Below, in pieces: positions 34-667 of a stretch of DNA of 34,503 nt (the first letter of the stretch is position 1; every line of letters starts with the position of its first letter). A model generated the notes under the pieces. The model made no database searches and was not told where the DNA came from. It was given only the letters and a program-made list of their open reading frames with translations. The translations under genes were made by a program, and so were the position numbers. The stretch comes from Geobacteraceae bacterium (GTDB lineage Bacteria > Desulfobacterota > Desulfuromonadia > Geobacterales > Geobacteraceae): assembly GCA_017861285.1 (NCBI GenBank), contig JAGFXO010000005.1, forward strand, positions 1-34,503, in the 5' to 3' direction.

Positions 34-206
34 ATCCGCCACGGCCTGTTTTACCGACAAAAATAATATATAATGCTTTTTTTCGCAAGGAATAATGAGT
101 ATTTCCCCCGGAAGAAACGGGGAGGGTGTTTGTCATCGAAAATCAACCTATTGCGGAAAATTCATCGCTGAATCGTTTCATCGCTTCCCGAAGGTAAAGA
201 TGCCTC

Positions 207-236
207 ATTTGCGGTATCGAGTCGAGTATTTGCGGT
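207..236 (+). promoter_or_regulatory. direct repeat ATTTGCGGT, candidate enhancer-binding sites
   Basis: ATTTGCGGT occurs at 207-215 and again at 228-236, exactly 21 bp apart, or two helical turns. A third partial copy, ATTGCGG, lies at 150-156. They sit about 100-175 bp upstream of the start expected from the sigma-54 promoter at 311-327, the usual distance for bacterial enhancer-binding protein sites. The repeats are directly visible; their function is inferred. Confidence 0.4.
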
Positions 237-310
237 CGTAAAAACAGAACGTTGCCAACGGGTATGGCGTATGCTCCTTAAATTTCATCGAAAACTAACA
301 ATGTTGTGTC

Positions 311-327
311 TTGGCACGCTATCTGCT
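311..327 (+). promoter_or_regulatory. sigma-54 (RpoN) promoter
   Basis: The sequence TTGGCACG, four bases, then CTGCT matches the -24/-12 consensus (TGGCACG-N4-TTGCW) with a single mismatch. The invariant GG (313-314) and GC (325-326) are separated by exactly 10 bases, as required. Transcription should start near 338, giving a leader of roughly 28 nt to the ATG at 366. Such promoters need an ATP-driven enhancer-binding activator; the repeats at 207-236 are candidates for its site. Confidence 0.75.
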
Positions 328-365
328 TTACTAAAGACTCAAAATCATATCAGGAGGATGTACAA

Positions 366-614
366 ATGAAGAAAGTTCTGTCCACTATCGTTGCCGCTAT
401 CGTTGCTGTTGCTTTTGCCGGTGTTGTTTTCGCTGCTGAGCCTGCTGCCACTCCCGCCACTCCTGCCGCTCCTGCCGCTGAAGCGAAGAAAGCAGAAAAA
501 GCTCCGGCTAAGAAAACAAAGAAAGCAAAAAAAGCAAAGAAAGCTCCTGCAAAGAAAGCCGAGCCGGCAACTCCTGCTGCTCCTGCCGCTCCTGCTGCTC
601 CTGCTGCCAAGTAA
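366..614 (+). CDS. small exported Ala/Lys/Pro-rich protein
   Basis: This 82-residue protein has a clear signal peptide (Lys-Lys start, hydrophobic core, likely cut after Val-Phe-Ala at residue 23). The mature part of about 59 residues is almost entirely Ala, Lys, Pro, Thr and Glu. Pro/Ala-rich ends flank a strongly basic centre of repeated Lys-Lys-Ala units, so it should be disordered and highly positive. The ATG at 366 is chosen because CAGGAGG lies 9 bases upstream and because it begins the signal peptide; the frame is open further upstream but without a ribosome site. It stands alone, with a sigma-54 promoter in front and a strong terminator behind. A role in binding nucleic acid, polyanionic polysaccharide or the cell surface is possible but unproven. 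The gene is certain enough; the function is unknown. Confidence 0.85.
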   Translation: MKKVLSTIVAAIVAVAFAGVVFAAEPAATPATPAAPAAEAKKAEKAPAKKTKKAKKAKKAPAKKAEPATPAAPAAPAAPAAK

Positions 615-630
615 TTATTGCGAATCAGCG

Positions 631-667
631 AAAAAAAGCCGCATCCGAAAAGATGCGGCTTTTTTTT
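631..667. terminator. bidirectional rho-independent terminator
   Basis: A ten-base-pair stem (636-645 with 652-661) closes a CGAAAA loop. It has a T-run on the right (660-667) and an A-run on the left (631-637), so it can stop transcription in both directions. It lies between the convergent genes 366-614 and 666-1043 and overlaps the stop codon of the latter. Confidence 0.9.

Follow-up and report, generated by a model that had tools for sequence, protein, structure and literature searches.

Conservation across relatives indicates that the 82-codon gene preceded by the first 365 bases of the window (the whole stretch of DNA analysed, 34,503 bases, which is all of contig C22 of a 2.46 Mb host genome in 225 contigs) is almost certainly controlled by sigma-54 and an upstream activator site (UAS). 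As read from the sequences, the conserved unit is a UAS palindrome, a half-site, a −24/−12 promoter, a strong ribosome site, a short exported protein rich in Ala, Lys and Pro, and a terminator (Table 1). This unit is found in nearly all Geobacterales examined and in no genome of the class outside that order, the order being our own reading of the names of the relatives, which include Geobacter, Geomonas, Geomobilimonas, Geomesophilobacter and Oryzomonas (names covering 80 of 103 loci, with G. sulfurreducens not represented). We consider it plausible, while holding the view with some reserve, that the cell envelope is here filled, under a two-component sigma-54 switch, with a small disordered polycation.

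Table 1 Position of the small gene, its regulatory elements and its convergent neighbour in the window.
Feature	Position	Strand	Basis
Palindromic enhancer (UAS) for a sigma-54 activator, TGCCTCATTTGCGGTA	201–216	+	22.8 bits, 112 nt ahead of −24 GG
Second UAS copy, 21 bp on; right half alone kept (ATTTGCGGT, 228–236)	222–237	+	Matrix scoring, conserved columns
Sigma-54 −24/−12 promoter TTGGCACGCTATCTGCT; GG 313–314, N10, GC 325–326	311–327	+	Consensus match, conservation
Predicted transcription start	338	+	Inferred from −12 spacing
Shine-Dalgarno AGGAGG	352–357	+	Sequence reading
Exported lysine/alanine/proline protein, 82 aa	366–614	+	ORF reading, relatives, composition
Signal peptide, residues 1–23	366–434	+	Read by eye, no predictor
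Mature part, 59 aa	435–611	+	After VFA cleavage site, judged by eye
Intrinsic terminator, 15-bp perfect stem and T-run	631–666	+	Sequence reading
TIGR04073 family (exosortase system-associated) convergent neighbour, context only	666–1043	−	NCBIfam 102.3 bits, cut-off 50

The promoter of the window matches 11 of the 13 informative consensus positions, in keeping with the preliminary description of this DNA, which had proposed a near-consensus −24/−12 element with exact GG-N10-GC spacing. The sigma-54 consensus published for Geobacter sulfurreducens, as given in the part of that paper available to us, is TTGGCACGGTTTTTGCT (PMC2725144). The homologue search listed 131 matches, of which 130 were read with their flanks (G041:C84 was left out) and divided by simple rules into 112 main-type, 9 GC-tail and 9 long TG members. 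A site matching at least 8 of the 13 positions 30–60 nt 5′ of the start preceded 106 of the 112 main-type members (the exceptions being L088, L099, L112, L116, L120 and L128), while the same test was passed by 18/621 other ORFs of these loci, counting those of 150 aa or more, and by 82/5600 shuffled upstream regions, controls that rule out a chance promoter. Among the side types the promoter was present in 0/9 GC-tail and 2/9 long TG members.

Alignment of the upstream DNA on the −24 GG revealed conserved columns approximately 110 and 80 nt upstream, with positions near the second UAS copy kept at −84/−83 and −80 to −78 from the GG. The UAS has the consensus TRCCNCAWWTGNGGYA and the palindromic pattern T(A/G)CC-N-CA-WW-TG-N-GG(T/C)A; it was found in 102 of 103 deduplicated family promoters, mostly starting 110–115 nt ahead of the GG, and a second scored copy occurred in 12 promoters, mostly 20–21 bp further on. 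The 21-bp-phased direct repeats noted previously are real in that ATTTGCGGT occurs twice, at 207–215 and 228–236, with a spacing of 21 bp, but they are the right halves of the UAS and of its degenerate second copy, that is, a palindromic activator site with a half-site two helical turns beyond it rather than simple direct repeats. Since the promoters used to train the UAS matrix were also those on which it was counted, controls were added: sites of at least 10 bits fell in the expected interval in 106/108 promoters and in 3/2160 shuffles, this shuffle control complementing the independent test provided by the second switch-only scan described below. At least one copy bearing both promoter and UAS was present in each of the 55 genomes with a family match (55/55). 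Two marks of membership in a sigma-54 regulon were found, a −24/−12 element with GG-N10-GC kept before orthologues and an upstream activator site at a conserved distance, and the sequence-level refutation named in the preliminary description, absence of the −24/−12 element in front of orthologues, did not occur. At the level of sequence, order-wide promoter conservation and specific enhancer conservation strongly support its suggestion that the gene is under sigma-54 control with an activator of its own. Between enhancer and promoter, IHF-like sites carrying no more than one mismatch were enriched (47/103 cases, 14.7 expected), with the window's own best IHF-like match situated away from the conserved place. 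No RNA element was recognised in the region, the best Rfam matches being terminator look-alikes far under the gathering score, and a PADLOC search for a defence system gave no match at E 0.01.

We also searched for the switch using a composite DNA pattern (loose UAS, gap and promoter) that contains no protein information. In 30 genomes this pattern had 51 matches against 2 for the reversed control; 41 lay directly 5′ of known family genes and 8 elsewhere, with G125:276022 and G126 left unassigned. A second scan covered 40 genomes, comprising 21 class genomes outside the order and 19 within it in which the protein profile had matched weakly or not at all, and returned 9 matches, 6 of them with a consensus UAS. 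These six all lie in divergent genomes of genus g18 (G128, G130, G131, G132, G133 and G135), and each is immediately 5′ of a gene for an exported A/K/P protein of 73–77 aa that shares the AGGAGGATGTAC leader, although the protein profile had no match in four of these genomes and a weak match in two. The switch therefore predicts the gene. The remaining matches (G029, G137 and G141) have poor UAS letters and unrelated downstream genes.

A homologue of the protein was present in 55 of 58 related genomes, and a 12-row profile matched 128 of 141 genomes of the order at E 1e-3. At E 1e-6 the profile matched 122 of 277 genomes of the class, all 122 within the order, and none of the 136 class genomes outside it (0/136). 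Genomes with a match carry 1–9 copies. The family occurs in two recurrent gene settings. The first, which is that of the window, combines a convergent TIGR04073-family gene with a family B DNA polymerase, the TIGR04073-family gene recurring in convergent orientation downstream of 47 copies in the locus set, and elsewhere includes a divergent gene that we take to be radical-SAM-like from its sequence and the features of that family. In the second, the family gene is followed by what are presumably, again from sequence and family features, an Hsp33-like gene and truA- and hemA-type genes. The very low complexity of the mature part, and a composition common to signal peptides, might suggest that similar A/K/P proteins arose repeatedly and that the matches reflect composition alone. 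We regard such a chance family as extremely improbable, as the coincidence is contradicted by synteny and regulatory conservation: flanking genes are conserved, the regulatory DNA is kept at fixed spacing, the family is sharply confined to one order and the gene can be predicted from switch DNA alone.

The 82-aa protein has Lys-Lys near its start, then a run of hydrophobic residues and, as judged by eye, a VFA/A cleavage site, after which come 59 residues of which 44% are Ala, 24% Lys and 19% Pro, with Glu and Thr making up the rest. The earlier statement that the protein is made almost only of Ala, Lys, Pro, Thr and Glu is exact for this mature part (100%), which has a net charge of +10 and contains no His, Cys, Asp or aromatic residues by composition count. 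The pI is 10.3 and the protein falls on the disordered side of a charge-hydropathy plot, which, together with its composition, fits the earlier view of an unstructured polycation; that it is exported and disordered is very probable. Conservation of the signal peptide across the order is striking and exceeds that normally expected for such sequences; perhaps a function other than export, or a constraint on codons or translation, lies behind it.

Codon usage of the gene is distinctive, with GCT for 17/32 Ala, GTT for 6/6 Val and CCT for 8/11 Pro codons, compared with 7% (Ala GCT), 22% (Val GTT) and 8% (Pro CCT) in four neighbouring genes, and GCT accounts for 56% of Ala codons across the family. 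Codon patterns of this kind are expected in very highly expressed genes, and the gene is likely to be highly expressed when on. An AGGAG/GGAGG motif stands ahead of 99/112 main-type relatives, and terminator-like structures follow 99/112 main-type genes but only 2/336 random stretches. The gene is probably transcribed alone because a strong intrinsic terminator closes it, in line with the lone 82-residue exported protein described initially. Neither the window protein nor the scanned members received a family name in Pfam or NCBIfam at cut-off, and our literature searches found no paper naming this protein.

Sigma-54 activators are few in the host genome, which contains only nine matches to PF00158, and beside family genes GAFTGA activators were found only as 2 isolated neighbours. 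With moderate confidence, we regard as the likeliest activator an order-specific response regulator of NtrC/ZraR type on host contig C48 (L244 1823–3211), accompanied by an adjoining membrane kinase with HAMP, HisKA and HATPase domains and a borderline Cache_WalK domain (27.2, cut-off 27). Clear orthologues of this regulator (70–82% identity) were present in 45 of 52 genomes of the order tested (21/23 and 24/29) and in none of 21 genomes outside it. G029 and G070 lack both the regulator and the family; G033, G136, G137 and G138 retain the regulator with no gene of the family found there, and the family is present without the regulator in G129 and G135, which are incomplete assemblies (85% and 73%). 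Scanning with the UAS matrix found no UAS in the regulator's own operon.

It is rather unlikely that the activator is instead another sigma-54 regulator (NtrC, NtrX, a GAF/PAS type or a PilR-like protein), in which case induction would follow nitrogen, redox or surface state and not envelope stress. All of these are encoded by the host genome and NtrC orthologues were present in 12/12 genomes tested, but both NtrC and NtrX have orthologues in the class outgroup G141 and in genomes that lack the family. Four activators were profiled (the L244 regulator, L246, NtrC and NtrX), with L247, L248, L249 and L250 left out. The FleQ-like L246 was excluded because it is absent from G048, a genome carrying the family with a perfect UAS, and is found in genomes lacking the family. 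Comparison of EBP motifs with those in the available portion of a Desulfovibrio study gave no lead (PMC4641369).

If the C48 regulator is the activator, an envelope-facing histidine kinase would phosphorylate it, and the phosphorylated regulator would bind the UAS and loop to RNA polymerase-sigma54, helped in many members by an IHF-like bend, and the gene would pass from silence to very high expression. Exported by Sec and cleaved after VFA, the product would then act as a disordered cationic chaperone or shield that, like Escherichia coli Asr, stops aggregation or loss of integrity of periplasmic and outer-membrane components under stress. Such wiring resembles that of ZraSR-ZraP, the zinc/envelope-stress system: there, according to the part of the source available (PMC4987338), envelope stress leads a two-component sigma-54 activator to switch on a periplasmic chaperone. 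The likeness lies in a two-component sigma-54 activator over a small exported protein, the candidate regulator being of the same broad type, but unlike in ZraSR-ZraP it does not adjoin its presumed target. The C48 regulator scores below the cut-offs of the AtoC, NtrC and ZraR models (ZraR, 381.6 vs 760 bits), and no ZraP match was found among Pfam and NCBIfam matches of the window protein up to E 10. The preliminary description called sigma-54 control unusual for a protein of this kind, which is fair, yet ZraP offers a precedent for a sigma-54-driven exported chaperone (PMC4987338, as far as available).

As for the function of the protein, which we infer, the preliminary description suggested a surface, biofilm or counter-ion role; the sequence evidence leans toward an Asr-like envelope-protective role, a role that, by analogy, we can propose only tentatively. 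The acid shock protein Asr of Escherichia coli is described, in the accessible part of the source, as a disordered periplasmic chaperone (PMC10746267); its RefSeq product name is ‘periplasmic chaperone Asr’ (NCBIfam NF033636). From its sequence, Asr looks like the best functional parallel for the family, whose members appear to be built like Asr; acid induction and chaperone/aggregase activity are further traits that mark Asr itself. Asr and the window protein have in common a short, exported form with an MKKVL-type signal peptide, and a disordered cationic mature part rich in Ala, Lys, Pro and Thr; the signal peptide followed by a basic, low-complexity, disordered mature part that characterises NF033636 is present here, with cleavage judged by eye. 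The window protein scores 18.8 bits against the curated cut-off of 50, and BLASTP gave no alignment between it and E. coli Asr. At E up to 1, each of the 12 members scanned matches the Asr model, the best at 1.1e-5. Conversely, the family HMM gave E. coli Asr 75.6 bits, more than 500/500 shuffles of the mature part (best 67.9), a score still inflated by low complexity because the null2 correction was off. Asr differs in having Gln/His-rich repeats, which are absent from the window protein, and in regulation: Asr is not known to depend on sigma-54, whereas sigma-54 control is a feature of the window gene. The protein thus belongs by score to neither the Asr nor the ZraP family.

The main alternative, which we judge unlikely, is that the protein is a surface or matrix polycation that leaves or coats the cell and crosslinks or neutralises anionic polymers such as lipopolysaccharide, exopolysaccharide, extracellular DNA or acidic cytochrome filaments, tuning a biofilm or electron-transfer matrix. 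The polycationic composition and the affiliation of the host with an order of extracellular electron-transferring bacteria suit this view, but no sequence feature carries the protein beyond the periplasm. Further evidence comes from a second predicted UAS/sigma-54 target in the host genome (L240 526–1450, G000:C80), which encodes an exported protein of 200 aa for which neither Pfam nor NCBIfam gave a match at E 0.01. Its UAS scores 19.5 bits and lies 109 nt ahead of the GG, its promoter core TGGCACGCTATCTGC is identical to that of the window, and its 209-nt leader contains a c-di-GMP-I (GEMM-I) riboswitch (48.1 bits, gathering 35). Members of this riboswitch class in Geobacter, as reported in the part of the source available (PMC6456294), include cGAMP sensors that lie ahead of genes for cytochromes, pili and polysaccharides, and the second target hints at a link with surface physiology, although it is one case in one genome and the small gene itself has a short leader without a riboswitch.

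A role as a metal, proton or anion buffer, in which lysine tails and the PxGHPP(I/V) motif of some paralogues would bind protons, metals or oxyanions, is improbable. The GHP motif occurs in several paralogues and the GC-tail side family weakly resembles ExtJ, a small protein of a selenite/tellurite reduction cluster (NCBIfam NF040942), but the residues missing from the mature window protein (see above) argue against it, as do the ExtJ scores: full-length alignment was obtained in 2/6 side-family proteins, at no more than 17.6 bits against a cut-off of 52.5, and the window protein reached 7.7 bits. The window protein moreover differs from this side family in lacking the GC tail, and the side family in lacking the promoter.

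Returning to the envelope-protective reading, a sigma-54-driven exported protective protein is of a kind already known, and what is new is that this version is confined to one order, is disordered, occurs in multiple copies and has an enhancer code of its own. A more far-reaching version, which we offer as decidedly speculative, is that a private Geobacterales kinase-regulator circuit with this code is devoted almost wholly to one family (up to 9 copies per genome) of disordered secreted polycations. These would serve the envelope and matrix of electroactive cells, both anionic and rich in cytochromes, as a condensable cationic glue or shield, and would be a lineage-specific and so far undescribed counterpart of Asr/ZraP. 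The family is near-universal in an environmentally and technologically important order, yet Pfam and NCBIfam give it no name at their cut-offs. With its codon usage and its dedicated all-or-none switch, it shows clearly how sigma-54 can govern a protein that is cationic and disordered. The enhancer code makes the activator, the signal and the full target set directly testable, and if the protein does guard the envelope or organise the electroactive matrix, it would bear on survival and electron conduction.

Several related proteins depart from the main type. L106, L110, L113, L117, L119, L121, L124, L125 and L129 are exported Lys-rich proteins that end in AGC or SGC and constitute the promoterless GC-tail set. 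In genus g13, L115, L118, L122, L123, L126 and L127 are longer Thr/Gly-rich paralogues that have no scored sigma-54 site at the expected place and keep the signal peptide and Lys cluster. Elsewhere in the family, in a subset of copies comprising many paralogues (e.g. L016, L029, L062 and L086), the signal peptide and the Lys cluster are separated by a conserved (M/L)PxGHPx(I/V/M) motif, a GHP-type motif that is possibly a metal or heme ligand.
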